From a virus: a DNA stretch of 44,801 bases. Position 1 is the stretch's first letter; each line of letters starts with the position of its first letter. The stretch is taken from the IMG/VR virus record IMGVR_UViG_3300037231_000039, positions 1 to 44,801 of that record; one strand, given 5' to 3'. Below are positions 24,857-42,625 of this stretch, piece by piece. The notes beneath the pieces were generated by a model. That model was not told where the DNA came from, made no database searches, and worked only from the letters and a program-made list of their open reading frames with translations. Position numbers and translations under genes: made by a program.

Positions 24857-26305
24857 ATGGGTATTTTCCTGACGCCCGTCGATGTTGCAAACTCAGCCCT
24901 CGACGAAGTCGGGGCGGACCCGATTGTCGCCCTGACGGACAACACGAAGCGTGCTGCCGTCGTCGCTCGGAACCTCGATAAGTTGCGTCAGGCCGAGCTT
25001 CGGCGCAACGTGTGGCGCTTCTCCATCCGCAAGGCCCCGCTGCGTGCTGTAGACGTGACGACGATGTTCCCGGTCTGGGCGAACTACAACGCCGCCAAGA
25101 TCTATATCGCCGGCAGCATCGTCACCGCGGTCGATACGCGCCCCTACATCGCCCGCGGCCCAGTGCCGCTCGCTACGCCCCCGGGCTCGCCCAACGAGGC
25201 GTACTGGGACCTGTACTTCGGCCCTGTCACCGCCAGCCCCTGGATCCCGGGCGCGGCGACCTCGGGTCCGAACCTCTGGAATAGCATTGTCGTCTACAAC
25301 GTCGGCGACCAGGTCGTCGGCGTGGACGACAAGATCTACACCTCCCAGACCGCCGACAATGTCGGCAACAACCCTGTCACCGACGAGGGCATACACTGGG
25401 CCGCTACTGGTGTCCTTGGGAACACGGGTGGCTACTTTGCCGGGGAGTTGGTCTACGTCCTGAATGGCCTGACCCCGAGCGTTTATATTTCCCTGACAAA
25501 CGACAATGCCGATAACCCATCCACCATATCGGTGTGGGATGCGACGACCACCTATTCCATCGACCAGACCGTGATGTCGAACAGTGTCACCTATCAGTCG
25601 TCCATCGACCTCAACTTCAACCAGACCCCGGTTGCGGCCTGGGTGTCTGGTACGACCTACGCCATGGGTGCCGAGATCTTGGCCTCCGACAACAACCTGT
25701 ACACCTCGGTTGCCGGCAGCAATACCGGCCACAACCCGGTCGGCGATGCTGGGGTTCACTGGACCCTGGTCGGGCCGGCTCCGTGGGTCGCCACGCCCGG
25801 CACCCAGGCTGATGTCATGCAGGGCCTGAACTGGCTCCTCCTGGACGCCGGCATACGGTCCCTACAGATTGTCTATCCTCTGGGCTGCGGCCCTAGCTCA
25901 CAGGCGTCTACGCGCAATATCTACCGCCTGCCGGCCGGCTACTTGAGGAAGGCCCCCCAGGACCCCAAGGCCGGCTCCCAGAGTTGGCTCGGGGCACCCA
26001 GCAATCTCAACTACGACGACTGGGAGTTCGAAGGCCAGTGGATCGTGTCCCGGGATGTCCGCGTCATTGTGTTGCGCTTCGCGGCTGACGTGGCTGACGT
26101 GTCGCAGATGGATCCACTATTCCAGGAAGGCTGGGCTCTCCGGGTCGCCGAGAAGGTCTGTGAACCACTGACCCAGTCAACGACCAAGATCAGCATTATC
26201 CTACAGAAGTACAAGGTGTTTATGGGCGAGGCTCGCGCGGTAAACGGGATTGAGGAAGGGTCGGACGAACCGCCCCTGGACGATTATCTAGCCTGTAGGT
26301 GGTAG
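24857..26305 (+). CDS. Tail tubular protein A-like adaptor with inserted carbohydrate-binding-like modules
   Basis: This 482-residue protein forms the first ring under the portal. N-terminal residues 1-65 (VDVANSALDEVGADPIVAL, LRQAELRRNVWRFSIRKAPL) and the region after residue 325 (IYRLPAGYLRKAPQDP, DVRVIVLRFAADVADVSQMD, SQSTTKISIILQKYKVFMGEA-like end) match the gp11/gp4-type gatekeeper family, usually 160-200 residues. Between them about 240 extra residues contain repeated modules with the pattern W-x5-Y-x2-G-x2-V ... Y-x-S ... N-x2-P ... W. Clear copies are at about 141-183, 227-262 and 262-304, with a weaker one at 74-118. These resemble CBM5/12-like modules. The last part is tightly coupled to the nozzle gene. 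Confidence 0.88.
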   Translation: MGIFLTPVDVANSALDEVGADPIVALTDNTKRAAVVARNLDKLRQAELRRNVWRFSIRKAPLRAVDVTTMFPVWANYNAAKIYIAGSIVTAVDTRPYIARGPVPLATPPGSPNEAYWDLYFGPVTASPWIPGAATSGPNLWNSIVVYNVGDQVVGVDDKIYTSQTADNVGNNPVTDEGIHWAATGVLGNTGGYFAGELVYVLNGLTPSVYISLTNDNADNPSTISVWDATTTYSIDQTVMSNSVTYQSSIDLNFNQTPVAAWVSGTTYAMGAEILASDNNLYTSVAGSNTGHNPVGDAGVHWTLVGPAPWVATPGTQADVMQGLNWLLLDAGIRSLQIVYPLGCGPSSQASTRNIYRLPAGYLRKAPQDPKAGSQSWLGAPSNLNYDDWEFEGQWIVSRDVRVIVLRFAADVADVSQMDPLFQEGWALRVAEKVCEPLTQSTTKISIILQKYKVFMGEARAVNGIEEGSDEPPLDDYLACRW

Positions 26306-26308
26306 GTC

Positions 26309-29300
26309 ATGCCAGCGGCCTCTTACGTCCAAGACAGTTTCCTCGGTGGCCAATGGTCGCCGTACTACCAGGGTCGGTTCAAAGACGAACTCTACTCCTC
26401 GGCTATGGCGATATGCCAGAACACCATTCCGCTTGAGGAGGGTGCCGCCGCCCGCCGGCCGGGCCTGAACTACGCCGCCCACACCCGGGGCGGTGTGTTC
26501 GGCGTGCTCCGGGAGTTCCAGTTCAGCCAGAACCTACCCTACAACATCGAGTTCACTCCCGGGCATATTCGCTTCGTCTTCGGCAACAACCTGGTCTTGG
26601 AGCCCACCACCCAGCAAGTCACCGCGATCTCAACGGCCACGCCCGCGGTGATCTCGACGGCGCTTGACCATGGGTGGTCGACCGGCGACGAGGTGCAGTT
26701 CAACCTGCCGGCCGCGGCTACCGATGTTGGGACACACCTGCTCTACAATCGTCAGTTCCTGATCACCGTCATCGACGCGACCCACTTCTCCATCGCTGAC
26801 AGTGTAACGACCATCTCCGTCCCGGGAACCTCTCTCGTCCTTGGCCCCTTGGGGACGATGGTGTCGCGGGTTCTGGACTTTGCTACCCCTTATGTTGCGG
26901 CCGACCTGCCGGGTTTGCGAGTGATCCAGGTTAATCAGGAGGGCGAGGAGAGTGTTGTCATTCTGTCGCAGGGCAATGCCCCCATGCAACTGAAGGCAAT
27001 CTCGAACCCTGACCAAGCCTTCAATACCTTCGCAACCTTCCTCCTCACAACCCTCAACTTCATCGACGGACCCTATCTCGATCCGGTAGCCGATGGTGGT
27101 GTCGTGACCCCGAGCGCCAAGACGGGGGTCATTACGCTTACGGCCTCCTATCAATCCTGGTCGAGCATCGTCACTTACGCCCTGGCGGACACCGTCGTCT
27201 ATTCGGGTGTCGGCTATATCAGCCTGATTGACAGCAACCTGAATAACGAGCCGGACGTGTCATCCGGCCAGTGGCAAGCGCAATCGCCTGGTAGCAGCGT
27301 CAGCCCAAGCGGCTTCGTGGCAACGGACGTGGGCCGCTCCATCCGCCTCTTCAGCGCGCCCGCGGCCTGGAGTAAGGCGACGGCCTATGCACTAGGGGCA
27401 ACCGTTGAGTTCGACGGATCCTATTGGACGGCCCTGGTCGCCAATACCGGCAACCAGCCGGGCCTGGATGTCGTCAACTGGGGTATCGACACGGCGGCGG
27501 CAGTCTGGACCTGGGGTCGCATCCAATCGGTCGTGAGCACGACCCAGGTGACGCTACAGCTTCTCGGCGGCCCGCTCCTCTACACGACCGCTATCAATGT
27601 GTGGCAGGTCGGTCGTTACAGCGTGACGACTGGGTTCCCGTGCGTGGGGGTCTTCATGGAAGGCCGCCTCTGGCTCGCTGGCTATCAGTACCCGAACCAC
27701 TATGACGCTTCCATGAGCAACCTGCCGTTCCAGTACAGCCCGAGTGGACCGGACGGCACCGTCGCCGACGACAACGGGATCAGCGAGACCCTGAACGACG
27801 ACAGCACGAACCCGATCTTCTGGATGATCCCGGATGCCAATGGTATCGTGATGGGAACGCAGGAAGGCGAATGGCTAACGCAAGCCAGCGCCCTGAACGA
27901 CCCCTTGACGCCTACCAGCATCCAGTCGAAGAAGGTCACGAAATATGGTATGGAGAACGTCGAGCCGCGGCGCTCGGGTATCACCTTCATGGTCGTGCAG
28001 CGATATGCCCGCAAGCTGCTGGAGTTCATGCTGAACGTCTATAGCGGCAAATACGAGGCTATGAACGTCAGCCTCAAGGCTCGCGACATCGCCACCAGCG
28101 GCATTGCGGAGATCGCCTACCAGCGCGAGCGCACCCCCATAGTCTGGGCGCGGATGAACGACGGCACCTTCGCCGGCATGACCTACAAGCGCGAACGGTC
28201 GTTCCAATCCAACGGCCCGACCTTCTTTGGCTGGCACGAACATCCACTCGGAACCGGCCGCACGGTGACGGCCCTCCAGGAAGGGGCGAGCCCCGGGGGC
28301 GAACTTGACGTGATCACAATCATCACCAGTGATGGCACCCCAACCGGCTATTGGATTGAGGTGTTGACGGACATTGCGGACGAGGAAGATACCGCCCTCG
28401 ACGCCTTCAACCTGGATGGTGCGTGCCGACCCTTTGGGTCCCAGACCGCCACGGTCGACGGGGTCGACGGGATCTATCTGTACGGCTACTATTACCTGGC
28501 GGGCAAGACAATCCAGGTGTGGGGCGGCGGCCTGGATCTTGGCGACTTCACAGTCGCCGCGGACGGGTCGGTCTTTGTGCCCTTCGGAGCGGACGGGGCC
28601 TATACGGCTGGGTTCTATGGCGGCTACAGCCCGGCCCTGTTCACGCCGACCTACCTGGAACAACTGGCCACCGAAGGCAATGACTTCAACAACCTGGGGA
28701 TCTTCGTGTCCAACGGAGAGCCGGCCGCTGTCACCGCTCCGAACACCGCCGGCATAAGTCAGTTCACCGGCAACACCTATCAGGTCGTGGTGTCAGGTGT
28801 GGCCTCCTCCTTCGTCGACTGGAAGAACAAGCTGTTCTATGTCCCGGGCGAAAGTTCGGGGTCCGTATTCGGCCTATCTCAGTATAGCATACCCGCACTC
28901 CTTCCGACCGGAGCCGTCAGCAACACCGCCCTTGGTATTGGTGTGGGACCAGGTGTCTGTGGCCAAGACGGCAACCTTTACTTCCGCTCGGATAGCGCCA
29001 ACACGGGACCGTTTGCCAAGATCACTAATGGCTTGTCCTTCGTGTCGAGTTTCGGGGCTGACAGCAGCAATGAGACCTCCAGCCAGGCAGGCATGGCGCT
29101 ACCGTACAGCATGTGTGCGATCTCCTGCTTTGATCAGTATGTGGTTCAGACGGGTCTCCTGACCGGCAATGCTGTCAGTGGGGGCGGCGGGGTGGAATTC
29201 GCGGTAGTCAACGGTACAACTATGGAGTTTCAATCATCCTACGGTGGGGATCAAGCCCATGGTGGGATTTGTGCTGGCAAGCAGACCAACGACGGGCGCG

Positions 29301-30508
29301 GGCACTATTACGGCGAAGCCTATTCCCTTCTCAATAACACCGCCTATTATGCTTCAAACGGCCCCTATAGTTCTTTGGGTGTGTCCTCCTTGAGCTTCTG
29401 GAGGGTGGCGTTGAACGTTACCGCGCCGAGCCATATCCCCACCATTGGTCACACGAATATCGCCACCATTACCCCTGTGGACATTGATCCGACCTGGTAC
29501 GGCATTTCCCAAAGTCAGGGGATCTGTTTCGATCAGACAGACGGCAACGTCTTGGCCGTCGCTCAGACCAGCAATACGATTACGACCTGGAGCTATAACG
29601 GTAACGGCTGGACCCCGGGCTATCTCGTCGTAGGTTCGAACGGGCATGTCTACAAGTGTATAGAAGTAGTGGGCAATGTTGACCCTACTGGGGATGCTGG
29701 TGTTCACTGGACTGATCTGGGGGCCAAGGCCACAATTACGAATACGATCTACCTCTACAAGGTCAACAGTTCCACCGGGTCTGTTATGTGGGTCATCCCG
29801 CTCTCGGGGAACCCCGCGGACGATCAGAACTGGAACCAATCTCTGGTGCAGAATGGGCGGATTGCGCTGCTTTGTGAGGTCAGTGCTGACAATCAGAACG
29901 TCTACTGGATCGACACCATCGGGGGCACGATCATAACAACTACGGCTATTGAGGGATGCCTGCCCGAAGGTCAGCAAATGTGGGGTGCGAATGTCGGTCT
30001 GATCTTTGCGGTCAACTATGAAGACAGCGGCAGCCATCCGCCGGTTCCGCTGCCGGTGTTGCCAGCGACCGGCTCGTTCGAGAACTGCTGGGGATTCTTC
30101 GAGGCCGAGCCGATTACGCCAACGCAAATGTACGGCCCGTTCGTCGTCGGCTACACTTACACCAGCGAGGGCATGATCCTTCGACCCATCGCCCCGGAAG
30201 TGTCTGGCGCGCGAAATGGGCCGGCCCTTGGGAAGACGCGGCGCACGACCGACGCGGCTTGGCTCTTGCACAACACCAACGGGCTCAGCTTCGGGGTCGA
30301 CTTTGACACGATGCGGCCTATGGAGTTTAAGGCCGGTGGTCCGCAGACCGTTACACCGATGACGCCTTTGCAATTGTATTCCGACGTGTACTGGGATAAG
30401 GTCGATAGCGACTACACCTTCAACTCCATGCCGTGCTGGCGTGTGACGCGACCTTATCCCGTGACCGTGCTCGCGGTCGAGGCTTTCTTGGAGACACAGG
30501 ACCGCTGA
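26309..30508 (+). CDS. Tail tubular protein B-like nozzle protein with large insertions
   Basis: This 1399-residue protein is nearly twice the length of T7 gp12 (794). The N-terminus is typical of the nozzle family: SFLGGQWSPYYQGRFKDELY, CQNTIPLEEGAAARRPGL, FTPGHIRFVFGNNLVL. The end (GPFVVGYTYTSEGMILRPIA, TRRTTDAAWLLHNTNGLSFG, RPYPVTVLAVEAFLETQDR-type tail) also matches. Two carbohydrate-binding-like W-Y-G-W modules are at about 284-321 and 351-394. Residues about 780-1260 form a strand-rich insertion with repeated N-x-YY and WxI segments that resembles a beta-propeller and carries a further module at about 1099-1140. The insertion DNA is less GC-rich than its flanks. It probably adapts the tail to a host surface. 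Confidence 0.9.
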   Translation: MPAASYVQDSFLGGQWSPYYQGRFKDELYSSAMAICQNTIPLEEGAAARRPGLNYAAHTRGGVFGVLREFQFSQNLPYNIEFTPGHIRFVFGNNLVLEPTTQQVTAISTATPAVISTALDHGWSTGDEVQFNLPAAATDVGTHLLYNRQFLITVIDATHFSIADSVTTISVPGTSLVLGPLGTMVSRVLDFATPYVAADLPGLRVIQVNQEGEESVVILSQGNAPMQLKAISNPDQAFNTFATFLLTTLNFIDGPYLDPVADGGVVTPSAKTGVITLTASYQSWSSIVTYALADTVVYSGVGYISLIDSNLNNEPDVSSGQWQAQSPGSSVSPSGFVATDVGRSIRLFSAPAAWSKATAYALGATVEFDGSYWTALVANTGNQPGLDVVNWGIDTAAAVWTWGRIQSVVSTTQVTLQLLGGPLLYTTAINVWQVGRYSVTTGFPCVGVFMEGRLWLAGYQYPNHYDASMSNLPFQYSPSGPDGTVADDNGISETLNDDSTNPIFWMIPDANGIVMGTQEGEWLTQASALNDPLTPTSIQSKKVTKYGMENVEPRRSGITFMVVQRYARKLLEFMLNVYSGKYEAMNVSLKARDIATSGIAEIAYQRERTPIVWARMNDGTFAGMTYKRERSFQSNGPTFFGWHEHPLGTGRTVTALQEGASPGGELDVITIITSDGTPTGYWIEVLTDIADEEDTALDAFNLDGACRPFGSQTATVDGVDGIYLYGYYYLAGKTIQVWGGGLDLGDFTVAADGSVFVPFGADGAYTAGFYGGYSPALFTPTYLEQLATEGNDFNNLGIFVSNGEPAAVTAPNTAGISQFTGNTYQVVVSGVASSFVDWKNKLFYVPGESSGSVFGLSQYSIPALLPTGAVSNTALGIGVGPGVCGQDGNLYFRSDSANTGPFAKITNGLSFVSSFGADSSNETSSQAGMALPYSMCAISCFDQYVVQTGLLTGNAVSGGGGVEFAVVNGTTMEFQSSYGGDQAHGGICAGKQTNDGRGHYYGEAYSLLNNTAYYASNGPYSSLGVSSLSFWRVALNVTAPSHIPTIGHTNIATITPVDIDPTWYGISQSQGICFDQTDGNVLAVAQTSNTITTWSYNGNGWTPGYLVVGSNGHVYKCIEVVGNVDPTGDAGVHWTDLGAKATITNTIYLYKVNSSTGSVMWVIPLSGNPADDQNWNQSLVQNGRIALLCEVSADNQNVYWIDTIGGTIITTTAIEGCLPEGQQMWGANVGLIFAVNYEDSGSHPPVPLPVLPATGSFENCWGFFEAEPITPTQMYGPFVVGYTYTSEGMILRPIAPEVSGARNGPALGKTRRTTDAAWLLHNTNGLSFGVDFDTMRPMEFKAGGPQTVTPMTPLQLYSDVYWDKVDSDYTFNSMPCWRVTRPYPVTVLAVEAFLETQDR

Positions 30509-35700: not shown

Positions 35701-37483
35701 CTACCGCAACGGGGTCAAGGAGATCTGGGAAACCTCCGCTCCCGAAGTCGCCAACATGATCAAGGGGGCGTCGCCGATCCAGGCCAACATGATCATCCGG
35801 GTCGCACGGGATATATCCGCTGTCGTCCGTATCGGGATTGAGGCCCCAGTCGACTTCGCCATCCGGGCCTTCGGCGGGCACCAGATGATCCAGTGGATGA
35901 ACAATCGGAACCATCCGCCGCCGTTTATCACCGGGTTCACTGGCCTCCTGAAGACCATGAACATGCATGACCTCGCGCTAGAAGCCATGGCCAACGGGTC
36001 GATGGGGACATCGCTTGTCGATATGGACAAGGACACCCTCTACGACACGATGTCGAAGGTCTTGACCGACAACGGAACCCTCAACCATGTCACGAACGAT
36101 GTCGGTCAATACAACGCCAAGGTCCTGAAGTTCAGCGAAGACAAGCCCTCCATCATCGAACGCGCCGAAGGCGTCGGGAACGCGATTAAGAACAGTCACC
36201 TGTCCCCTATCTGGCTCAGCCGGGCTGTACAGGAACGCCTCGACCAGGGCAACCGGGTAGGGCTGTACGCCCAAGGCCGGGCCAAGGGGATGACAGGGGC
36301 CAAGGCTGGATCGAACGCCGCGGAGGCCGGGATCGACTACACGAACGGAGGGGCGAACGCTATCATTTCCATGTGGTCATCCATGGTCCCCTTCATGCGT
36401 CCGAGCCTCCTGTATACCGAGAACGCCCTGGCTTCGATTGAGCGCAACCCCGCGGCCTACGCGACCTACGCCACTATGGCCGTAACCCTGCCGAAAATCG
36501 CCCTGTTCGCCATGAATATGTACGCCGACAGCATCCCTAAAGGTCAGCCCGGCTACATCCCGGAGGCGGACAAGTACCGCAACCTTCCCAACTGGGAAAA
36601 GCTGTACTACTACATCACCCCGCCCATTTTCGGGCAGCGCCTCAAGCTGCGGATGCCAGCGTTCGCCTCCTTCCCTTTCGGGGCAGTCCCGGAGGCAATG
36701 ATGCAGACCATGTGGGAACACGACCCGGTCAAGTTCATGGATAGCTTCCAGGCGTGGATGCGCGACACAGTGCCGCCCCTGGTGCCGCCGCTCCTCCAGG
36801 AGCCGCTGACGGCGATCAGTGGGTTCAACATGGATACCTTCCAGCCCCTGGTTCCCTCGTCGTCAGCCAATGCCTTCGCGGAGCTTGAGCAAACGCCTTC
36901 GTCGTCGGTCGCCGCCAAGGCACTCAGCCGGATCGTCAGCCCTCCGCTCCGCGCCATGGGGGTTCCCCTGAAGCTGTCCCCCATTGTCATCGACCACCTG
37001 ACCAATGGGTGGCTCGGGGAGAGCGGCCGGGCTATTGACCAAGCCGTCAATGCCGCGGCGCACCGCCCCGGGCCGCCAACCGACATCGCTGACATCCCCT
37101 TCGTCCACGGGTTCTTCCTCTCCCACCCCGGCCTGAACGGTCAGGTCCTGGACGACTACTACACCGAGAAGGCCAAGTTCGATGCTCAGCTTGCGAACAA
37201 GCAGGCAATCAAGAAAGAACGGACGGTGGACGCCAACCCCACCGAAGATCAATCCATGGTCCCGGACGCCGAACGCTACTCCAACGCGGAGAGTACGCTG
37301 AACAAAATCTCCAAGGTACTCGCCCGCCAACGGCTGGAACTCTGGGCCATCAACGACAGCCCTACCATGTCAGCCGATGAGAAGCTGACACAGGGGACGA
37401 ACATCACGAACTACACGATCCAGTTGGCGTACAATGCGACTCAGCAAATGCGCGCCTTTGAAGTCAGGCACCCGGCCCACTGA
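32765..37483 (+). CDS. Internal virion protein with lytic transglycosylase domain, gp16-like
   Basis: This 1572-residue protein (T7 gp16 is 1318) carries an SLT-type peptidoglycan lytic transglycosylase at about residues 400-520. The catalytic glutamate is probably E412 (MKSLEASG), followed by VSKTGAEGTYQIEPYTARQY and AIAYNAGPG near 477-485. In T7 gp16 the enzyme lies at the extreme N-terminus, whereas here about 400 Pro/Ala-rich residues precede it. The rest is long helical sequence, with hydrophobic parts near 1180-1260 (ATYATMAVTLPKIALFAMN). The protein opens the cell wall and helps translocate DNA. It is the largest gene in the genome. Confidence 0.92.
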   Translation: MPDIGEAPDPTPLSDGEKWEQSQMAAGVPAPEVQSGKDERTAALRTGGFTKDQIDAYWGVNKPTPKANAAGNSNVAAATQAKPDTTPSLLSDPLQYLGAALGTATDGLKALSQGYGNTAYAAAVGARQTQAVGSAGAGLGELNAAYASPDPSDPEAARDAFTTIGHLGMAAWDFSSAAFQEVLAAPMAALDAGGPGAAVSKIPIPATPGFQIKAGPLGQVTVPAAPATHLPQTWTGDTVGLVAGFALGGDHSLPPAAIPEATRYTAMEATHSGEFKTGPADIVPHHVDAPASPVVSAVKDAIPTHDDFRIQATRLIGHGLDVGTTKRVQHNLEQVWVNAGIHPADAVDMAERDPVYREELFHQDIAGNPVTPHFQSFRPTAPKPFATPKPEEGTAPLAGSVDDGLTLMKSLEASGVNAVSKTGAEGTYQIEPYTARQYMGADFDMSTLKDPAVNARVARVIMSDLYHRYQGNQEAMAIAYNAGPGRADKWVANTEGAGVRLEAVRDNSLRSGWRYTTVATARDEAWMPLETQQYVARARYKLGGHTEPEGVVHDGGPHVTTPDGTTPVQGGLPGEREPYEFKTAENGAEVDSLGIENSIGQHQKEEQDEPVIDHVDVHTGKSVFEGEASGGAASAWGLDRPYEDAENEVLSNIGEQSDLPAPKGLSAYDRFITAVMSRVQPAKVLSDYLRNNDELDEADYDLRDAFSQATKSPQRAQIAAGATEHGGGAVDWDPEKLEWTVNPEIPTARTAVASAIKNGGTAQGLMAWLLARRTMVLEVNRKINTGFNVGAASRMMADDGARAVYQDAADQWDAYNHNVLKYAVKSGWKSQAEADAIESAGAWVSMRALRGDEQGFRLPDKGFLIGNPLKRMRGKNGQIVDSLVASLDNNAQIFRSGDINLATHQLITHAEADPEFAATYGLRKVGTPKLPDRDVIDNALKAYGFDENDEAAMNKAREAFGSIIGERDDAKLGPMQFAYYRNGVKEIWETSAPEVANMIKGASPIQANMIIRVARDISAVVRIGIEAPVDFAIRAFGGHQMIQWMNNRNHPPPFITGFTGLLKTMNMHDLALEAMANGSMGTSLVDMDKDTLYDTMSKVLTDNGTLNHVTNDVGQYNAKVLKFSEDKPSIIERAEGVGNAIKNSHLSPIWLSRAVQERLDQGNRVGLYAQGRAKGMTGAKAGSNAAEAGIDYTNGGANAIISMWSSMVPFMRPSLLYTENALASIERNPAAYATYATMAVTLPKIALFAMNMYADSIPKGQPGYIPEADKYRNLPNWEKLYYYITPPIFGQRLKLRMPAFASFPFGAVPEAMMQTMWEHDPVKFMDSFQAWMRDTVPPLVPPLLQEPLTAISGFNMDTFQPLVPSSSANAFAELEQTPSSSVAAKALSRIVSPPLRAMGVPLKLSPIVIDHLTNGWLGESGRAIDQAVNAAAHRPGPPTDIADIPFVHGFFLSHPGLNGQVLDDYYTEKAKFDAQLANKQAIKKERTVDANPTEDQSMVPDAERYSNAESTLNKISKVLARQRLELWAINDSPTMSADEKLTQGTNITNYTIQLAYNATQQMRAFEVRHPAH

Positions 37484-37998
37484 TGTCCAAGAACATTGTC
37501 CCGCGCCGCTCGACCCAGCAAGTCCCCGCGGGCTATATCTGGGGTCGGCTCCCCGGCACCGGGACGGGTCCCGTCCAGCTTTTGAACCTCCAGGATCTCG
37601 ACAAGTTCGGGATCGCTTCTAAGGCTGTCGCCGCCAAGGCGGCTGTCGTCCATGGCTTCGGCTTTTCGATCAGTGGTCGACCTGGCGCGGGCCAGATCAT
37701 CGGGATTGCCAGCTTCCCCTACCAAATGACCTTCACCAGTGGCGATCCGGGCGACGTGGTGATCGCGACGGTGGCCGCTACCAGCACGGCTGAATTCGAT
37801 GTCCAGACCCAGGTTGGCGGGGTGTGGACAACGATGGGTACACTGATCTTTGCCGCGGCGGGAACCACTGCCCCAGTCGCCTTCACGGGCGGGGCTTTCG
37901 TCTTACCCGCCGGTCAGCAATTCCGTCTCGTGGCCCCGGCCAGCCAGGACGCCACGCTGGCCGATATAAGTGGTCGGGTCGTAGGGGTGGCAGGATGA
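37483..37998 (+). CDS. Putative tail fibre-associated structural protein
   Basis: This 171-residue protein starts SKNIVPRRSTQQVPAGYIWG, with a segment RLPGTGTGPVQLLNLQDLDK resembling the N-terminal adaptor part of phage fibre proteins. The rest is strand-rich with Ala, Thr and Gly (DVVIATVAATSTAEFDVQTQ, TAPVAFTGGAFVLPAGQQFR), as in a small carbohydrate-binding or jelly-roll domain. It starts at TGATG and ends by overlapping the next gene (ATGA). The exact role is inferred from its position after the ejection proteins. Confidence 0.72.
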   Translation: MSKNIVPRRSTQQVPAGYIWGRLPGTGTGPVQLLNLQDLDKFGIASKAVAAKAAVVHGFGFSISGRPGAGQIIGIASFPYQMTFTSGDPGDVVIATVAATSTAEFDVQTQVGGVWTTMGTLIFAAAGTTAPVAFTGGAFVLPAGQQFRLVAPASQDATLADISGRVVGVAG

Positions 37999-38906
37999 GT
38001 GGCCCTACTGTTGTTCAATTTGCCGCCGGCTCCAATTCGGGGGCGGGTACAATGGCGGCGGCATTTGGGTCTGGTTTCGCCGCCAATGTGATACCCGGCA
38101 ACGTCTTGGTTTGTGTCGCGGGGACTAGTAATACAGCATCGGTCTCTACTCCAACCGCAGGCCAAAATGGGTGGACAAATGTTGCCTCTAATAATCAAGG
38201 TGGGTCTGGCCCAGCCATCCAAGTTTGGGTTCGAGAGGCCGTATCCGGGGATAATAAGACCCCGACTATGCCCTATACTTCTGGCCCTAACAGTGCCCAG
38301 TACGGTTCCTTCAATTATTTTGTGGCTATGTGGGAAATTACAGGATGCGATGTTGCGTCCATAGTAGATAAAGCAGAAGGTGGTGTATTATCGGCTTCAG
38401 GAGGTACAACTACAAACCAGACTTCTAGTAATGCAAATGACTTGGCTCTCTTCGCAGCCATGGTTTACACGGGTGCTATAACCCCATCAGGTGGAAGTCC
38501 GGGGTCTTGGACAACCGATGATAATACAACCCGTGTTAGTTGGGCTTTGAGTTTTGATCATCAGGCCGTAGCCTCCAGTGGGGCCACCGTCAATTTGACT
38601 ATTGGGGCTACAGGCTCCTACACTCCAAGCTATATTCAGGTTCTCCTTAATCCCTCGGCTGGAGCGCCGAGTACGGAGACCGGCACCGTTGCCATGGCCC
38701 TTGGCAAAGCCACCTTCGCCGCCGGGGTCGCCCGTACCGAGGATGCTGCCACCTCCTTGGCCCTGAAGGGGGTAAGTTTTGTCGCCGACGCCGTGAACGT
38801 CAACGAATATGGAGCGGTCAGTTTAGCTCTCGGCAAAGCTACCTTGCGGGTCAACACCGTAGACGTAACTGCCGAACCAGTGCTTGTGAACTTTTACACC
38901 TTCTGA
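37995..38906 (+). CDS. Putative receptor-binding/fibre protein, compositionally mosaic
   Basis: This 303-residue protein starts at the ATG overlapping the previous stop. Residues 1-220 are Ser/Thr/Asn/Gly-rich and strand-forming (FAAGSNSGAGTMAAAFGSGF, FVAMWEITGCDVASIVDKAE, SFDHQAVASSGATVNLTIGA). The DNA for this part (about 38010-38650) is distinctly AT-richer, with A/T third bases, unlike the flanking genes. The C-terminal part (38670-38880) returns to GC-rich codons and has three short repeats around TVAMALGKATF, SLALKGVSFVA and SLALGKATLRV. The structure suggests a swapped receptor-binding domain. The family is not certain. Confidence 0.75.
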   Translation: MSGPTVVQFAAGSNSGAGTMAAAFGSGFAANVIPGNVLVCVAGTSNTASVSTPTAGQNGWTNVASNNQGGSGPAIQVWVREAVSGDNKTPTMPYTSGPNSAQYGSFNYFVAMWEITGCDVASIVDKAEGGVLSASGGTTTNQTSSNANDLALFAAMVYTGAITPSGGSPGSWTTDDNTTRVSWALSFDHQAVASSGATVNLTIGATGSYTPSYIQVLLNPSAGAPSTETGTVAMALGKATFAAGVARTEDAATSLALKGVSFVADAVNVNEYGAVSLALGKATLRVNTVDVTAEPVLVNFYTF

Positions 38907-38918
38907 TAGGATACGCCA

Positions 38919-39356
38919 ATGACTGCCACCCCCATGATCTCCGTCGCTGCCGCCAAGGCTGGCCTGAACGCGATCACGGCGCTATTCAACAGCTATTACA
39001 TCAACATTTATACCGGAGCCCTTCCGGCCAACTGTGCCGCCAGCGAGGCCGGAACCCAACTTGCGGCCCCGCAGTTCGGCGCTACCGCGTTCGGGACGGC
39101 AGTCGATGGGACCACCACGGGGATTATGACCTCGACGGCAAACGCCATTACATCGGACACGAACGCCGACAACAGTGGAACCGCCGGCCACTTCCGCTGC
39201 TCCTCGACGGATGGTGGCGGGACGGTTGCTGCACAGGGAACCTGCGGCACGGCGACCGCGGACATGATCTTGAACACTACGTCGATCACCGCGGGCGATA
39301 CCGTGGCGATCACCTCTTTCACAATCAGCCTCCCCGATGGGTCAGGAGACGACTAA
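38919..39356 (+). CDS. Conserved phage structural protein, tail-associated
   Basis: This 145-residue protein has the pattern NAITALFNSYYINIYTGALP, AGHFRCSSTDGGGTVAAQGT, then TSITAGDTVAITSFTISLP. I recognise this from a widespread small virion-protein family of phages of GC-rich bacteria, with LNA...G...IYTG..P and a final D..I..G..V.I..F. AGGA lies 7 nt before the ATG. It is likely part of the fibre or baseplate-like complex, without known biochemical activity. Confidence 0.8.
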   Translation: MTATPMISVAAAKAGLNAITALFNSYYINIYTGALPANCAASEAGTQLAAPQFGATAFGTAVDGTTTGIMTSTANAITSDTNADNSGTAGHFRCSSTDGGGTVAAQGTCGTATADMILNTTSITAGDTVAITSFTISLPDGSGDD

Positions 39357-42145: not shown

Positions 42146-42625
42146 TCAGCCGCGTTCGGCCTCGATCTCCTTCTGGAGGTTCGCCAGCGCCCGCCAAGCG
42201 ACCTTGGCCGAGTGGCGAACACCATCAGTGTCGAGGGTGCCGGCGTCCACCAGGTGACGCGCGAGGGCGTCCTTCTCGTCGCCGGACTTCGACCGATCCC
42301 AGTGCAGGGGCGAGCCCGGATTATGCTGATCGTTGCCGATCTTCGATAGTTCCGCAACGGCCAGCAGGGCGTCGGGGAAGTAGTCGATGCAGCCCGAGAA
42401 CAGAGGGGCGTTCTTCCGCGCCGCGGCGTCACCGATGCGATCCAGGGCAGCCCGGGCGATCTTCCGCTCGTTCTCGGAGATCTGACTGACCGGGCCGTTC
42501 TCACCGCTCGGGATAGGCCGGACCACGGGATGGTCTATGATCTGGTTAACCACCGCATAGTCGTTGCACTGGCGCTGGCACGCGATGCAGTTGCAGTCCG
42601 CCTTCAAGAACCAGTGACTATCCAT
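42146..42625 (-). CDS. dATP/dGTP diphosphohydrolase N-terminal domain family protein (DUF5664-like)
   Basis: This 159-residue protein has the family pattern in full: LFSGCIDYFPDALLAVAELS, GNDQHNPGSPLHWDRSKSGD, ALARHLVDAGTLDTDGVRHS and AKVAWRALANLQKEIEAE. The family includes MazZ-type enzymes, which remove diphosphate from dATP or dGTP in 2-aminoadenine (Z) genome phages, but many phages carry it without the other Z genes. No PurZ or DatZ is found here. An N-terminal extension has four cysteines (CNCIACQRQC). The ATG at 42625 has GGAGG at 9 nt. It is the last gene of the replication operon and may adjust nucleotide pools. Confidence 0.82.
   Translation of the reverse strand: MDSHWFLKADCNCIACQRQCNDYAVVNQIIDHPVVRPIPSGENGPVSQISENERKIARAALDRIGDAAARKNAPLFSGCIDYFPDALLAVAELSKIGNDQHNPGSPLHWDRSKSGDEKDALARHLVDAGTLDTDGVRHSAKVAWRALANLQKEIEAERG

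Follow-up and report, generated by a model that had tools for sequence, protein, structure and literature searches.

Two tail proteins encoded by a short-tailed phage (podophage) carry lineage-specific insertions that contain eight CBM5/12-like stretches, five in the adaptor and three in the nozzle, each with the pattern W..Y..G..V...Y...P...W. Judging from their sequences, the label of add-on parts for contact or docking suits these modules better than that of proven sugar binders, and we regard it as somewhat more probable than the contrary that they form accessory arms pointing outward, with a role in docking or in contact with a surface. The window, i.e., the whole stretch of DNA that was analysed, is a single virus record of 44,801 bases.

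The two tail proteins and their modules

The adaptor gene (tail tubular protein A, T7 gp11 family) occupies positions 24857 to 26305 on the plus strand and encodes 482 amino acids (phrog_394, E = 9e-28), with the best stretch of the PHROGs match at residues 352 to 480. The core of its model matched T7 gp11 (6r21_M; Z = 14.3 over 175 residues) and 8ck1_E (Z = 18.6 over 186 residues); as in T7 gp11-type adaptors, a helix bundle is combined with a fibre-dock beta domain, and the gene lies directly 5′ of the nozzle gene. The nozzle (tail tubular protein B, T7 gp12 family) is encoded at 26309 to 30508 on the plus strand (1,399 amino acids; phrog_376, E = 2e-78), and its model matched 8ck1_A and T7-type nozzle entries in Foldseek (E = 1e-24 to 1e-7). 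An FCCH-type domain is also present near the nozzle N terminus (residues 103 to 190; positions 26615 to 26878), and several relatives (e.g., L030 and L081) show further profile matches to this part at later positions of their nozzles.

To grade the modules, each was scored with a profile of the others against 2,000 shuffles (leave-one-out test). No shuffle equalled the scores of A2 (adaptor residues 138 to 185, positions 25268 to 25411; 37.4 bits), A5 (260 to 306, 25634 to 25774; 32.5 bits), N1 (nozzle residues 282 to 326, 27152 to 27286; 29.0 bits), or N2 (352 to 395, 27362 to 27493; 23.0 bits), all on the plus strand like the remaining four. The short module A4 (adaptor residues 225 to 262, 25529 to 25642) reached 14.5 bits, with 1 of 2,000 shuffles as good. 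Scores were lower for A1 (residues 72 to 123, 25070 to 25225; 7.8 bits, 12 of 2,000), the short A3 (residues 189 to 227, 25421 to 25537; 7.3 bits, 17 of 2,000), and N3 (nozzle residues 1092 to 1138, 29582 to 29722; 7.3 bits, 9 of 2,000). Circularity was avoided in a cross-protein test, in which a profile built from one protein was applied to the other. The nozzle-only profile detected A5 (24.7 bits), A4 (12.4 bits), and A2 (11.0 bits) in the adaptor, the best of 4,000 shuffled proteins scoring 9.7 bits; the adaptor-only profile detected N1 (18.4 bits) and N2 (11.3 bits) in the nozzle, N2 falling just above the best shuffle (11.1 bits). On the basis of these profile and leave-one-out scores, we class A2, A5, N1, and N2 as strong, A4 as borderline, and A1, A3, and N3 as weak and possibly degenerate. 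Modules A3, A4, and A5 are short and abut one another, with the boundary tryptophans W227 and W262 common to neighbours.

The family assignment agrees with these patterns: a profile of all eight modules matched the chitinase A1 module (PDB 1ED7) at E = 6.4e-5, and Pfam CBM_5_12 matched four of the eight (best E = 6e-5), with the whole proteins falling under the Pfam cut-off. An earlier note on this DNA had proposed CBM5/12-like repeats in both proteins, and much of that description holds. Its open frames and coordinates for the two genes are right, and its repeats are real, although its count of at least three to four copies in protein A and three in the nozzle becomes five and three here; its nozzle stretch at 29602 to 29730 matches N3, and its family assignment is borne out by the 1ED7 and Pfam matches. 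The protein that it called tail tube, in contrast, is the adaptor ring.

Insertion sites and relatives

The adaptor insertion spans residues ~64 to 348 (positions 25046 to 25900, plus strand), with ends uncertain by ~20 residues or more; the core profile matches only residues 7 to 78 and 350 to 481. Among 116 distinct adaptors of more than 150 amino acids in the loci examined, the median length was 191 amino acids (95th percentile, 209), against 482 in the window, which makes the insertion ~290 residues long. The earlier note was thus correct that protein A contains an insertion but too low in its estimate of ~240 residues, and its claim that the modules are spliced into proteins A and B is upheld; relatives lack them. 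Internal inserts occurred only in the window lineage (482 amino acids in the window and 424 in its closest relative, L002) and in Podoviridae sp. ct3Et533 (276 amino acids); none of the 116 had CBM5/12-like modules outside the window lineage. Because most of these adaptors were collected by similarity to the nozzle and to the ordinary adaptor, rare variants may have escaped the comparison. Two other adaptors, those of ctQRb9 and ctCJ8213, are longer than usual, and no module was seen in them by eye.

The adaptor insert with modules is present in two records only, the window and L002. A viral scan for further members of the lineage returned L002 alone, and scanning of a genome collection revealed no prophage relatives. 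Apart from a gap of 58 residues, which corresponds to module A2 plus its linker, L002 aligns to the window adaptor along its full length; one whole module has thus been gained or lost between the two. The modules are 63 to 84% identical between the window and L002 (N3, 52%).

Within the adaptor, the insert breaks the fold after the first strand past the helix pair. The hhalign comparison puts it at T7 gp11 residues 69 to 73, a weak match by sequence (E = 0.008). By alignment to T7, with the structural match carrying the claim, the insert is placed within the predicted fibre dock. In T7, the tail fibres are held by the fibre dock, an outward domain, and the tip of the nozzle is turned towards the cell (PMC6702177); in SU10, the fibre dock is likewise an outward domain that holds fibres (PMC9509320). 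The alignment to T7 thereby also supports a placement of the modules in domains facing outward, in line with the decorations suggested in the earlier note.

The nozzle carries lineage-specific insertions of ~110 and ~520 residues: most relatives' nozzles lack residues ~286 to 397, which include N1 and N2, and ~760 to 1280, which include N3. N1 and N2 flank a DVG motif. Nozzle residues 439 to 563 align with T7 gp12 residues 336 to 461 in hhalign (weak by sequence, E = 6e-4), and, with the residues named in PMC6702177 as a guide, the tip domain of the T7 nozzle branches off blade 3 at around residues 146 to 297. By position relative to T7, N1 and N2 would therefore lie in the nozzle-tip region. 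The longer insertion follows the propeller (28586 to 30148, plus strand), at a site where most relatives have a short gap. It had no match in Pfam, PHROGs, or the PDB and no convincing match in phages; a database match to a fucose lectin (E = 0.27) was not convincing either. The insertion appeared propeller-like by eye only, and self-comparison found no repeat (E = 0.24). It is 52% identical between the window and L002, against 73 to 82% for the core, and thus diverges faster.

AlphaFold models were built for the adaptor (46-row alignment) and for nozzle residues 201 to 1399 (40 rows). The cores were usable, and each insert had pLDDT <50 over almost its whole length. For this reason we claim no fold for the modules, and their probable exposure rests on homologous positions.

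Decorated tails in other phages

Additional domains were found in other podophage adaptors and nozzles. The ct3Et533 adaptor (UOF78036.1; MW202510.1; L084 6980 to 7810) contains an insert at the same point as that of the window; there, however, the extra beta domain is a single FCCH-like one of ~75 residues and is not CBM5/12-like. The ctRVW222 adaptor (652 amino acids; MW202478.1 26500 to 28458; L192 11501 to 13459, minus strand) has an N-terminal extension of ~415 residues with TLTGTAKTTTFTK-like repeats. The nozzles of Escherichia phage APEC, L110, and ctQRb9 each contain one CBM5/12-like module (nozzle genes at L110 3552 to 5729, MT664721.1 33651 to 35828, and MW202722.1 24503 to 26905). 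The APEC module occupies the N1/N2 site, directly before the DVG motif, and those of L110 and ctQRb9 lie at another nozzle site. Similar modules are also found in phage tail fibres, such as the annotated Aaphi23 tail fibre protein, and a Campylobacter phage protein annotated as a putative adaptor carries one. The ct3Et533, ctRVW222, APEC, L110, and ctQRb9 cases indicate that decorated adaptors and nozzles recur, with differing domains. Taken together, these results suggest that the conserved adaptor ring also serves as a decoration platform, with CBM5/12-like modules in the fibre dock here and unrelated domains elsewhere.

The window proteins resemble T7 gp11 and gp12 (6r21; PMC6702177) in fold family and gene order and in having a fibre dock and nozzle domains; in contrast, both T7 proteins (196 and 794 amino acids) are without the inserts, and T7 has the gp17 fibre. 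Among long-tailed phages, tail tip proteins with inserted carbohydrate-module-like domains are already known; in the open-access literature, we came across no report of podophage adaptors with CBM5/12-like inserts. In evolved Dit proteins (Lactobacillus phage J-1 and others; PMC6115969), as here, a conserved tail ring protein bears carbohydrate-module-like inserts able to project outward. Compared with Dit, the window modules belong to another family and are set in another ring and fold family, those of the podophage adaptor and nozzle; cell binding has been shown for J-1 CBM2 (PMC6115969). The cores of the window tail proteins are adaptor and nozzle rather than Dit folds, so only the working mode is compared. 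In that sense, the window modules are probably best read as the equivalent, in a short-tailed phage, of the evolved Dit found in long-tailed ones.

Ligand residues and candidate roles

The window modules share their size, the W...Y..G..V...Y...P...W pattern, and the core Tyr/Tyr/Trp with the chitinase A1 CBM12 (1ED7) and CjCBM5, but they are tandem inserts within virion proteins, some of them short and sharing a boundary Trp. In CBM12, the 'GWEP' tryptophan is the exposed ligand aromatic. In CBM5, chitin is bound by an exposed, almost fully conserved Y-W or W-W pair, and the core is built with a Tyr and a Trp (PMC8449059). When the window modules were aligned to 1ED7, the core aromatics were kept in all eight (aromatic residues in the columns of Y8 and Y21, and Trp in that of W42), whereas the positions of the CBM5 pair and of the CBM12 'GWEP' Trp held an aromatic in none of them. 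The same ligand aromatics were missing from 10 of 10 modules from other phages, including those of three podophage nozzles. Their absence argues against chitin-type binding and leaves room for another ligand. Phage CBM5/12 annotations should accordingly be checked for ligand residues before sugar binding is concluded, as all 18 modules examined (8 in the window and 10 elsewhere) were without them.

The earlier note had proposed that the modules bind polysaccharide, and the ligand positions leave that proposal unsupported. True CBM5/12 modules attaching the tail to host or environmental glycans would explain the likeness to the chitinase A1 CBM12 and Pfam CBM_5_12, and there are precedents: siphophage Dit proteins contain inserted CBMs, one of which binds host cells and is inhibited by cell-wall polysaccharide (PMC6115969), and KP32 tail tubular protein A is reported to be active on capsule polysaccharide (PMC5440376). 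Given that the ligand aromatics are absent from the window modules and from the 10 others, we consider this quite unlikely. A structural role, in which the modules dock or space another tail protein (a fibre or the proteins encoded at 37483 to 39356) with no contact to the host, is possible although on the unlikely side. It fits the position of the adaptor insert inside the fibre dock (PMC6702177), the weak matches near the N termini of phage tail spike or fibre structures (8fqc and 9rkv, residues ~28 to 118), the similar stretches in annotated tail fibre proteins such as that of Aaphi23, and the one-module putative adaptor of the Campylobacter phage; the partner protein is so far hypothetical, however, and host contact is the better fit for the modules at the nozzle tip and for the 520-residue insertion with its fast evolution. 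That the loops are merely permissive, accepting mobile beta domains of little function, would be consistent with the filling of the same adaptor site by different domains in different phages and with the gain or loss of one module between relatives. This near-neutral decoration is highly improbable in view of the module identity between the window and L002 and the retention of the core aromatics in eight of eight modules.

We favour outward accessory arms because no fibre was recognised downstream and because, in Vibrio phage OWB, tail tubular proteins A and B bind a host receptor directly (PMC7241545). The profile statistics of the modules, their likeness to CBM5/12, the scarcity of insertions among the 116 adaptors, the A2 gap in L002, the adaptor fold with its insert position, the faster divergence of the nozzle insertion, the similar modules in other nozzles and fibres, and the ct3Et533 insert also count for these arms; the restriction of the insert to two records, the weak sequence mapping to T7, the absence of the chitin-binding aromatics, the low pLDDT, and the unstated completeness of the contig, which makes the fibre's absence provisional, count against them. 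As we picture it, the insertions in the adaptor ring and nozzle would be built of small CBM5/12-like beta modules, and the string in the fibre dock, together with N1 and N2 at the nozzle tip, would project outward round the tail. With T7 stoichiometry (12 adaptors and 6 nozzles), there could be up to 78 module copies. Such arms may touch the host surface with low affinity but in many copies, or they may provide an integral mount that stands in for a separate fibre or adds to it. A bolder version, which we put forward tentatively and think unlikely, is that this podophage has no classical fibre and makes receptor contact through the adaptor ring, whose fibre dock would have grown a string of beta modules; with the string built into the dock, fibre and mount would be one protein.

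In T7 and in the relative MW202898, fibre genes follow that of the large internal virion protein (gp17 being the T7 fibre). Within the window, a contig of unstated completeness, no fibre was recognised downstream of the 1,572-amino-acid internal virion protein; three small proteins encoded at 37483 to 39356 occupy the usual fibre position. Two of these (171 and 303 amino acids; 37483 to 38906) had no named relatives in database searches, and the missing fibre gene is for that reason a lead rather than a result. Elsewhere in the window, the minus-strand gene at 42618 to 43229 matches a PHROGs family called cysteine dioxygenase (E = 1e-35); it adjoins an exonuclease gene and is an unusual auxiliary gene for a phage.
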